Shown here one piece after another: positions 5,335-23,433 of a stretch of DNA of 38,090 nt (its first letter is position 1; each line of letters begins with the position of its first letter). Under the pieces are notes generated by a model. The model searched no databases. It worked only from the letters and a program-made list of their open reading frames with translations, and was not told where the DNA came from. Made by a program: the position numbers and the translations under genes. Origin of the DNA: Candidatus Taylorbacteria bacterium (GTDB lineage: Bacteria; Patescibacteriota; Minisyncoccia; Phycocordibacterales; HO2-43-120); NCBI GenBank assembly GCA_039934295.1, contig JBDTMN010000001.1:1-38090 (forward strand), given 5' to 3'.

Positions 5335-5348
5335 TTAAATAATGAGAT

Positions 5349-5644
5349 GTGCGCACTAGGATTCGAACATTACATGTTCAGTACCCCGATTGGATTTTTT
5401 CTTCGTCATAGGATGACTCGAAAAATACTCAATCGGGCTTCGAATCCTAGAAGTAGGTAATCGCATTACCTACTTGCGCTTCCTCAAAAGTCTCGGTGCG
5501 CGCACTAGGATTCGAAGCCTACTGCTTCAGTACAGCTTTCCCATCCCCCACCACTTTGTTGCAAAGTGGTGGGGGATATGGGAGAAGCTTTTCGAATCCT
5601 AGGCGAAAGCAAAATAGTTTGCTTTCTTGCTTGCCCCTCGCAGA
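5349..5644 (-). repeat. tRNA-Ile 3'-end-derived palindrome array, two units of about 150 bp
   Basis: The final 19-25 bases of the tRNA-Ile T-arm and acceptor region recur at 5349-5367 and 5492-5516, in the same orientation as in the tRNA (5645-5669). In each unit CTAGGATTCGAA (5356-5367; 5505-5516) is answered by its inverse TTCGAATCCTAG (5439-5450; 5591-5602). Inside lie long hairpins with unrelated sequence (for example 5534-5589, a 19-bp-class stem). Between units sit perfect short hairpins (5451-5475, 11-bp stem; 5605-5626, 9-bp stem). The structure repeats while the stem sequences do not. Confidence 0.85.
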
Positions 5645-5649
5645 CTCGG

Positions 5650-5722
5650 TGCGCGCACTAGGATTCGAACCTAGGACCCCATCAGTATCAGTGATGTGCT
5701 CTACCAACTGAGCTATGCGCGC
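5650..5722 (-). tRNA. tRNA-Ile (anticodon GAT)
   Basis: Full cloverleaf on the minus strand: 7-bp acceptor GCGCGCA/TGCGCGC, D-arm GCTC/GAGC, anticodon stem CATCA/TGATG with loop CTGATAC giving GAT, and T-arm CTAGG-TTCGAAT-CCTAG. The discriminator base is A, and a complete CCA is not encoded (the DNA continues CCG). Copies of its 3' end form the adjoining palindrome array. Confidence 0.95.
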
Positions 5723-14080: not shown

Positions 14081-14151
14081 GGGCCTATAGTTTAGCGGTA
14101 AAATTTTCGTCTCCAAAACGAAAGTCCCAGGTTCAATTCCTGGTGGGCCCG
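14081..14151 (+). tRNA. tRNA-Trp (anticodon CCA)
   Basis: Acceptor GGGCCTA/TGGGCCC, anticodon stem TTCGT/ACGAA with loop CTCCAAA giving CCA, T-arm CCAGG-TTCAATT-CCTGG, discriminator G as expected for tRNA-Trp. The D-loop is short. CCA is not encoded. A 64-bp tandem repeat starts right after the gene. Confidence 0.93.
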
Positions 14152-14152
14152 C

Positions 14153-14280
14153 CTTCGCCTCGCTGAAGCTCGGCTACGGCGTGGCAAAGCCCGCACGAAG
14201 AAGAGCGAAAGCTGGGCTTCGCCTCGCTGAAGCTCGGCTTCGGCGTGGCAAAGCCCGCACGAAGAAGAGCGAAAGCGGGG
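14153..14280 (+). repeat. Two tandem copies of a 64-bp unit at the 3' side of tRNA-Trp
   Basis: Unit 1 (14153-14216) and unit 2 (14217-14280) start CTTCGCCTCGCTGAAGCTCG and are nearly identical (few changes). The unit is GC-richer than its surroundings and holds short inverted repeats (CGCC/GGCG; AGCCC/GGGCT). It directly follows the tRNA 3' end and precedes a GIY-YIG reading frame. Confidence 0.88.
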
Positions 14281-14543
14281 AGGCATCTCTTAACCCACTG
14301 TATAATGCAGCGCACTATATTTACAGTTTAAAGTGTAAGGATGGATATTATTTAGGTTGCACAGTTGATCTAAAAAGCAGATTGAAAAGACATGAGAAAG
14401 GTCAGGTTCCAGCTACAGCCAGTCGTCTTCCTGTTAAATTAGATTTCTATTTTGCAACCCCAAATAAATATCAGGCTTTTGAATTTGAAAAATATTTAAA
14501 GTCTGGTTCCGGCCGAGCATTTATTAACAAACATCTGCAATAA
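14181..14543 (+). CDS. GIY-YIG endonuclease-domain protein beside tRNA-Trp (start uncertain)
   Basis: The recognisable domain covers codons from about 14307: HYIYSLKCKDGYYLGCT gives the GIY and YIG positions (Y-I-Y and Y-Y-L-G), VDLKSRLKRHEKG the conserved Arg, and FEFEKYLKSGSGRAFINK the metal-binding Glu. This is the small GIY-YIG type often seen in CPR genomes. The frame is open upstream to a GTG at 14181, but those codons translate the 64-bp tandem repeat, so that N-terminus is doubtful. The only nearby ATG (14305) is out of frame by one base, so the gene may have a non-standard start or a frameshift. Proximity to a tRNA gene recurs for the second GIY-YIG gene at 22993-23232. Confidence 0.65.
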   Translation: MAKPARRRAKAGLRLAEARLRRGKARTKKSESGEASLNPLYNAAHYIYSLKCKDGYYLGCTVDLKSRLKRHEKGQVPATASRLPVKLDFYFATPNKYQAFEFEKYLKSGSGRAFINKHLQ

Positions 14544-22914: not shown

Positions 22915-22928
22915 TATTTTGTCTTTTG

Positions 22929-23002
22929 TGGACCCTACAGGACTCGAACCTGCCACCTCCTCATTGCAAATGAGGCGCTCTAGCCAGATGAGCTAAGGGC
23001 CC
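22929..23002 (-). tRNA. tRNA-Ala (anticodon TGC)
   Basis: Acceptor GGGCCCT/AGGGTCC (with one G-T wobble at 3-70), D-arm GCTC/GAGC, anticodon stem CCTCA/TGAGG with loop TTTGCAA giving TGC, T-arm GCAGG-TTCGAGT-CCTGT, discriminator A, no encoded CCA. Its first ten bases double as the last codons of the GIY-YIG gene. Confidence 0.95.
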
Positions 23003-23232
23003 AGTTTCTTTTTTAACAATCTTCTTCCAGCCGCACTTTTGAAATACACTTCTCGAGCGCGCGCTTCTTCAAATGTAGCATATTCTTCCTTATACACAAC
23101 AGACAATTCTTTCATTTTTCTCGTGGATATTGTATGCCCCGATCTATGCTCATTTAACCGTCTTTGTAAATTTCCGGTATAACCCTTGTAAAATTTCCCA
23201 TCCTTATCTTTTAGAACATATACTGTAAACAT
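22993..23232 (-). CDS. GIY-YIG endonuclease-domain protein nested in a duplicated tRNA-Ala
   Basis: 79 aa, complete domain: FTVYVLKDKDGKFYKGYTGNLQRRLNEH gives the V-Y-V and Y-K-G positions with the conserved Arg, and FEEARAREVYFKSAAGRRLLKK the metal-binding Glu and basic end. Domains of this size act alone as nickases or nucleases, or are homing-type proteins. The ATG (23232-23230) consists of bases 38-40 of a copied tRNA-Ala 5' half, and the TAG stop consists of bases 8-10 of the intact tRNA-Ala, so both ends of the gene are tRNA sequence. This fits insertion of the gene into a tRNA with restoration of a full copy. Confidence 0.88.
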   Translation of the reverse strand: MFTVYVLKDKDGKFYKGYTGNLQRRLNEHRSGHTISTRKMKELSVVYKEEYATFEEARAREVYFKSAAGRRLLKKKLGP

Positions 23233-23306
23233 TGCAAATGAGGTGCTCCCCGCCCGACCGAACAGATTCGATCGTTCGGGCAGGTAGCCAGATGAGCTAA
23301 GGGCCC
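23230..23306 (-). pseudogene. Partial tRNA-Ala copy (bases 1-40) with palindrome in its D-arm
   Basis: In tRNA orientation GGGCCC...GAGCTC-type sequence starting at 23306 repeats the intact tRNA-Ala from base 1 to GGCTA, then a 36-nt palindrome, then GAGC and the anticodon stem-loop up to CAATG. Only one further substitution was noted (GCGCC to GCACC). It ends at the start codon of the GIY-YIG gene. Confidence 0.88.
23249..23284 (-). mobile_element. 36-nt palindromic element, copy 1 (in tRNA-Ala fragment)
   Basis: In tRNA orientation it begins CCTGCCCGAACG and ends TCGGTCGGGCGGG. It interrupts the D-arm of the partial tRNA exactly between GGCTA and GAGC, so the insertion is cleanly delimited by comparison with the intact tRNA. 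Confidence 0.85.
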
Positions 23307-23433
23307 AATAAAAAAAGTTAATTGAATTCTGGGCGTATCAAGGAGATTTTACATTATTTTGACCATATTGCAATTTTTTGTATAAGGCCACCCATCTCGT
23401 GCATTCTGCTTACTTTTAATATAAACTTCCATT

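Follow-up and report, generated by a model that had tools for sequence, protein, structure and literature searches.

The window analyzed here, a 38,090-nt stretch of a Candidatus Taylorbacteria genome, contains a tRNA-Ala gene, a broken copy of its 5′ part and, between the two, a gene for a small GIY-YIG nuclease (Table 1). Read in tRNA orientation (the minus strand), the order is tRNA-Ala nt 1-41, the nuclease open reading frame (ORF) and the whole tRNA-Ala, all in the same orientation. A sequence-only reading of this DNA had described the arrangement as a half-copy, a 79-codon gene and a complete tRNA, and sequence comparison confirmed that layout: with its insert removed, the broken copy is identical to the intact gene at 40 of 41 bases, far beyond chance. 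Both ends of the ORF are tRNA sequence, as had also been claimed, with the ATG formed by the last three bases of the fragment (nt 39-41, or 38-40 in canonical numbering) and the TAG by nt 8-10 of the intact gene. An inserted 36-nt hairpin, CCTGCCCGAACGATCGAATCTGTTCGGTCGGGCGGG, brings the length of the broken copy to 77 nt. The sequence-only reading had the position and identity of the half-copy right but overlooked this D-loop hairpin, as well as the palindromes in other broken copies described below. No second copy of the hairpin was found in its own genome with up to three mismatches allowed, making it single-copy. The nuclease ORF is all that lies between the tRNA-Ala repeats (an insert of ~230 bp), with no recombinase or integrase gene. 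Upstream of the broken copy, a sigma-70-like match represents a possible original tRNA promoter, though a weak one since four such matches were found against 1.4 expected.

Table 1. Features of the window discussed in the text, with coordinates counted from its first nucleotide.
Feature	Position	Strand	Details
Two tandem ~150-nt units after tRNA-Ile(GAT)	5347-5647	-	tRNA-Ile(GAT) at 5648-5722 (-); also L146, L150, L140, L149, L151
Second small GIY-YIG domain	14313-14513	+	157 bp downstream of tRNA-Trp (14081-14153, +)
Intact tRNA-Ala	22928-23002	-	anticodon TGC; ARAGORN; RF00005, 62.9 bits
GIY-YIG nuclease ORF	22993-23232	-	79 aa; PF01541, E=3e-12
Broken 5′ copy of tRNA-Ala	23230-23306	-	nt 1-41 plus hairpin insert; starts exactly at tRNA nt 1
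Hairpin in D-loop of broken copy	23249-23284	-	36 nt, after nt 22; -20.7 kcal/mol folded alone
Sigma-70-like promoter match	23346-23373	-	TTGCAA-16-TAAAAT, 9/12; 40 bp before broken copy

The ORF scores well above the PF01541 cut-off (47.1 versus 22.6 bits). Among 23 related proteins, Y5, Y15, G17, R25, H29, E61 and K65 are invariant, and these include the catalytic set of the GIY-YIG superfamily (two Tyr, Gly, Arg and Glu, here Y5, Y15, G17, R25 and E61). Among solved structures, UPF0213 proteins come nearest (1zg2, E 7e-15; 1ywl, 2e-11), followed by SLX1, with I-TevI reaching only 2e-4. Against the group I intron endonuclease model TIGR01453, the protein scored 13.7 bits, under the cut-off of 56, and it consists of the catalytic domain alone. 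An Rfam search of the locus (L002; E up to 1) matched no intron, in keeping with the earlier description of the arrangement as intron-free; with no group I or group II intron around the gene, we rejected an intron-encoded homing endonuclease.

Four GIY-YIG matches were found in this 1.05-Mb genome. One lies in a 431-codon frame and is probably UvrC. The three others are small genes, and each of them sits beside a same-strand tRNA: Ala, Trp (157 bp after that tRNA) and Gln (173 bp after that tRNA). At the Trp and Gln loci of this genome, where the nuclease lies downstream, no broken tRNA copy was found. The spacer between tRNA-Trp and its nuclease (window 14154-14310) is rich in repeats, with a ~60-nt unit present twice, and leaves the nuclease frame open (150 codons). 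We compared these loci with the one other genome of the genus, referred to here as the sister species. At its tRNA-Gln and tRNA-Trp loci, matched through neighbor genes, the nuclease is absent. Clean empty sites, a comparison that the sequence-only reading had proposed for relatives, are limited to these two 3′-side loci, with none found for the 5′-side form.

The sister species holds a near twin of the tRNA-Ala arrangement at its tRNA-Ser(GGA) gene (L007). There, a duplicated promoter region with the 5′ part of tRNA-Ser is followed by a GIY-YIG gene, the promoter region again and the intact tRNA-Ser, and the broken tRNA-Ser carries a hairpin inserted in its anticodon loop. Its tRNA-Ala locus, which shares the glucose-6-phosphate dehydrogenase neighbor, has a half-copy (nt 1-35) and an intact tRNA with no nuclease gene, which may reflect decay or an independent event. 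Because the tRNA-Ala half-copies of the two species are each closer to their own genome's tRNA than to each other, the events were either independent or homogenized.

Association with tRNA genes extends across the order. We collected 121 small GIY-YIG genes from 60 genomes, taking the best-scoring matches first. Same-strand tRNA genes occur within the first 100 bp after these genes at 2.02 per kb, compared with 0.02 per kb at 400-1400 bp and a genome average of 0.018 per kb per strand; downstream tRNA density on the opposite strand is 0. The genes fall into class A (29 with a same-strand tRNA at most 160 bp downstream), class B (15 with a same-strand tRNA upstream) and class C (the other 77, with no tRNA nearby), so that a minority of the genes lie on the 3′ side of a tRNA. 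The sequence-only reading had held that the same gene away from tRNAs would weigh against its model; small GIY-YIG genes not beside a tRNA make up 77 of the 121. The enrichment next to tRNAs for which it had proposed to test was found.

The second expectation, flanking tRNA duplication, was also borne out. Inspection of the 29 class A loci showed that in 23 of them the gene is preceded by a 5′ copy of the tRNA that comes after it (that of L098 has diverged). These copies nearly always begin at tRNA nt 1 and end at positions that vary by locus, around nt 15, 25-28, 35, 41 or 56. The anticodon arm, previously suggested as the point of entry, is thus only one of several junction positions. In class A, most stop codons are no more than 5 nt from where the tRNA begins, and at 8 of the 29 loci they fall inside it, five times at nt 8-10. 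Sharing of the stop codon with the tRNA, as in the window, therefore recurs, though a second case of a start codon within the remnant was not established. Clear repeats flanking GIY-YIG genes away from tRNAs were seen only at L114 and L051, and in the upstream class at L095. Recurrence of the layout rules out chance or an isolated oddity.

The hairpin in the broken tRNA-Ala likewise has counterparts. On inspection, all 23 recognizable broken copies of the order contain a GC-rich palindrome, either inserted or replacing tRNA sequence, mostly in the D-arm region. Hairpins were rated by folding energy, as a perfect-stem score proved too strict for palindromes of 16-20 nt. A strong hairpin lies within 140 bp upstream of 83% of class A genes, compared with 17-24% of more distant upstream windows. 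In class C the figure is 31%, near the background of about 25%, and the idea that palindromes accompany all small GIY-YIG genes found no support. Broken tRNA-Leu copies usually carry the 20-nt palindrome CCTGCCTGCCGGCAGGCAGG or a close variant, which is shared by Bacteroidota, Omnitrophota and CPR and is inserted precisely, mostly at nt 15 or 22-24, without target duplication. When only clear hairpins are counted, the CCTGCC type appears 23 times and the TCCGCC type never in Leu copies, versus 11 TCCGCC and no CCTGCC in Asn/Lys copies. The four seed loci are part of these counts, and since at least two of them recur under other ids, a few duplicates are counted. The precise, favored insertion sites, together with a palindrome type that goes with the nuclease family, suggest a process linked to the nuclease.

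The 20-nt palindrome is also dispersed: of 98 genomes of the order, 33 contain it, with 1-20 copies each, and none contains its reversed control. Seven of the 56 palindrome copies listed have a listed GIY-YIG gene no more than 200 bp downstream. A role in guarding the joint transcript against misfolding found no support: across 53 loci, in silico removal of the palindrome left the frequency of predicted pairing between the 3′ acceptor strand of the tRNA and the broken copy unchanged (0.83 against 0.86, p=0.84), a comparison that says little either way because the energy model favors long-range pairing in any case.

Related nucleases reside at the same kind of tRNA. On the protein tree, class A isotypes cluster (four Leu, three Asn, two Arg and several Ser), and the isotype label changes 15 times, compared with a mean of 21.4 and a minimum of 17 in 5000 shuffles. 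All 23 proteins together gave an alignment too diverse for a collection-wide scan, so the Leu subfamily was chosen as the query. A protein-only search of 84,980 species genomes recovered 342 relatives, of which 80 loci were kept. These span at least 20 phylum-level groups, including CPR, Bacteroidota, Ignavibacteriota, Omnitrophota and Nitrospirota, and some of the hosts, such as Ekhidna lutea and Algoriphagus limi, are cultured isolates. Wherever a tRNA directly follows the gene it is tRNA-Leu (43 of 43 loci), with every isoacceptor represented, and a 5′ copy is present at 37 of these 43. In the Asn subfamily, the top matches lie at tRNA-Asn and remoter matches at Lys, Pro and Met, with a 5′ copy in 13 of 14. 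We infer that the Leu subfamily has been transferred between phyla, reading this from its distribution since the Leu-subfamily tree is poorly resolved.

Other targets and orientations follow a similar plan. Several Bacteroidota (L193, L204, L220, L240) show a mirror form, in which an intact tRNA-Leu with its terminator is followed by the nuclease and then by the 3′ part of the tRNA, with palindromes in the arms of this 3′ copy. At L114 (1900-2400, G039:C4), a GIY-YIG gene lies between exact 81-bp duplications of the 5′ end of a glycosyltransferase-like gene; the repeat includes the start codon of that gene. The mirror form and L114 together suggest a general rule, by which one part of the target is left broken while a whole copy remains. 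At L255, L257 and L270, broken tRNA copies with palindromes are found in tandem or after the intact tRNA, and in L255 the nuclease gene itself seems to be present twice.

A tRNA-Lys cassette found at the same locus in two congeneric CPR genomes is 89% identical over 509 bp. Its nuclease ORF is 88% identical, compared with 74% for a neighboring gene, and identity at codon positions 1, 2 and 3 of the nuclease is 92, 93 and 80%, a pattern indicating that the nuclease is under purifying selection and kept functional. Homing or transfer would explain why the cassette seems younger than the sequence around it; slower evolution could produce the same appearance. Relocation of the cassette together with its tRNA between the two species was rejected, because wider flanks place both copies at one locus, with tRNA-Ala and shared genes after it.

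We favor, at a probability of roughly 0.7, a free-standing, isotype-specific mobile gene that resembles homing endonucleases, invades tRNA genes and leaves one intact copy. In the window, a small nuclease gene would have invaded tRNA-Ala in this manner, carrying or rebuilding the part of the target that it breaks. The enzyme would cut an unoccupied tRNA gene of its own isotype, and repair from an occupied copy would install the tRNA fragment, the gene and the tRNA. With one whole tRNA remaining, the cell would survive; gene and tRNA would be co-transcribed from the old tRNA promoter, and normal end processing would free the tRNA. The core of the sequence-only reading, a tRNA-targeting nuclease that leaves a whole tRNA, gains support from the enrichment, the duplications and the isotype-matched subfamilies. 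Under such a homing-like model the intact tRNA should still be a target of the nuclease, which weighs against the model, as do the 77 genes not beside a tRNA and the lack of broken copies at the Trp and Gln loci. The palindrome could be the footprint of nuclease-linked insertions that are tolerable only in a non-functional tRNA copy, or it could serve to make the broken copy useless as a target or as a partner in recombination.

The strongest competitor, to which we give about half that weight, starts from the palindromes themselves. Here the GIY-YIG enzyme would act on hairpins (single-stranded DNA of tRNA genes and short palindromes) and insert or spread palindromes in trans, much as RAYT does with REP, the tRNA layout being a by-product. 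Such mobilization would explain why palindrome type follows the nuclease and tRNA family rather than the host, the precise insertion into tRNA-Leu without target duplication, and the dispersed 20-nt copies, a few of them just upstream of GIY-YIG genes. It sits poorly with the lack of upstream hairpin enrichment at GIY-YIG genes away from tRNAs, and most palindrome copies are not near a nuclease gene. One could also speculate about a two-part, undescribed system. In it, isotype-specific GIY-YIG nucleases would target hairpin loops in tRNA genes, and each would have a palindrome of its own that enters tRNA arms in trans. Scars would persist only in broken copies, so that the gene would travel across many phyla together with a whole tRNA and a scarred tRNA fragment that is sacrificed. 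We regard this system as slightly less likely than the palindrome-based competitor.

The remaining explanations are improbable to differing degrees. A host function, with the nuclease co-transcribed with the tRNA to aid its processing or regulation and the broken copy serving as a regulatory leader, would fit a gene that abuts a same-strand tRNA in many lineages and is under purifying selection in one pair. We think it improbable, given the patchy presence between sister species, the broken tRNA copies and the mirror 3′-side arrangement; nor would a processing factor need the tandem repeats (L255, L257, L270) or insertion into a protein gene. Still less likely is that the insert is what remains of a conventional integrative element that used the tRNA as its attachment site (tyrosine recombinase, prophage or ICE). 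The insert does have tRNA sequence as direct repeats on its two sides, but it consists of the nuclease gene alone and lacks an integrase, and the repeat is usually a 5′ part running from nt 1 to a variable end, whereas integrases usually use and restore the 3′ end. We give the least credence to an intron or split tRNA, in which the broken 5′ half would be spliced to a 3′ half: several junctions do lie in the anticodon loop, at nt 35|36, a place where tRNA introns are usual, but the downstream tRNA is whole by itself, the hairpin would spoil the broken copy and Rfam detected no intron at the locus.

How does the family compare with known systems? Like free-standing GIY-YIG homing endonucleases of the phage T4 Seg type, its members are small, have the catalytic set, are linked to their target, are patchily distributed and need no intron. 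Related nucleases also share a specific target, as homing endonucleases do, seen here in the isotype clustering and the uniform tRNA-Leu context. Unlike enzymes of the I-TevI type, the window protein is one 79-aa domain without extra DNA-binding domains, and unlike free-standing homing endonucleases in general, the target is an essential tRNA gene of one isotype of which a whole copy is always left. Some endonuclease genes of fungal mitochondria carry a replacement end for the gene they invade. The likeness lies in a split gene of which an intact version is left, made from old and new parts; the fungal cases, however, concern protein genes, whereas those described here are bacterial, mostly involve tRNA genes and have a palindrome in the broken copy.

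Members of the Ssn family are small GIY-YIG single-strand nucleases with a repeated target in Neisseria. As these relatives cut single-stranded DNA at repeats, the hairpins of tRNA genes would be natural targets. Both REP/RAYT and Ssn combine a small nuclease with short, dispersed palindromic repeats. The present family may do likewise, its palindromes being linked to the nuclease at tRNA loci, with no hairpin enrichment at the other GIY-YIG genes; here the palindrome lies inside broken tRNA copies beside the nuclease gene. From the same host lineage, rRNA genes of CPR are described as holding GIY-YIG inserts that match no intron and lie mostly at the tops or bases of stem-loops, with GIY-YIG judged to be outside spread by homing (PMC11270868); that study deals with rRNA genes only and does not mention tRNA. 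In a paper on the GIY-YIG superfamily (PMC1564403) we found no description of an association with tRNA, nor did we find a report in the open-licence literature of GIY-YIG genes with tRNA fragments. We would group the family with free-standing, homing-like endonuclease genes while not claiming membership. Judged by genome sequences, the recurrence of the layout across many phyla points to an unrecognized mobile gene family that enters tRNA genes without killing the cell.

Because tRNA genes are essential and conserved, a parasite able to enter them harmlessly has targets in every genome, and the family is widespread in CPR and Bacteroidota. Since its subfamilies track isotypes, genome sequence alone is enough to read off target specificity, and the palindrome in every recognizable broken copy offers a concrete, unexplained handle on mechanism. 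The layout also accounts for odd GIY-YIG proteins whose ends run into tRNA genes and may bear on assembly breaks at tRNA genes in these bacteria.

Other tRNA-linked elements were noted in these genomes. About 20 of the 38 tRNA genes of the window's genome are followed by a structured element of ~150 nt without an ORF, each unit of which ends in a copy of the last 15-24 nt of its tRNA. Both-sided changes occur in 30 of its 35 consensus pairs, and no Rfam match was found in the loci searched. A model of the element (R1) matches in 45 of 60 genomes of the order, with up to 40 copies, often in tandem. Near a tRNA-Met of the window's genome (L139), a group I intron model scored 48.3 bits (2136-2414, +) and 43 bits (146-376, -), just under its gathering cut-off of 50. 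Inverted repeats of 11-14 nt, for example ATCAAGACCATTGC...GCAATGGTCTTGAT, surround some tRNA genes of the sister species (L007, 1766-1881; L124, 96-193, -) and would lengthen the acceptor stem. Finally, several tRNA genes are found no more than ~500 bp from where a contig ends (G000 contigs C10, C20 and C24; G001 contigs C1, C14, C16, C18, C26 and C37), exceeding what the number of contigs suggests, and assemblies may break at tRNA-linked repeats.
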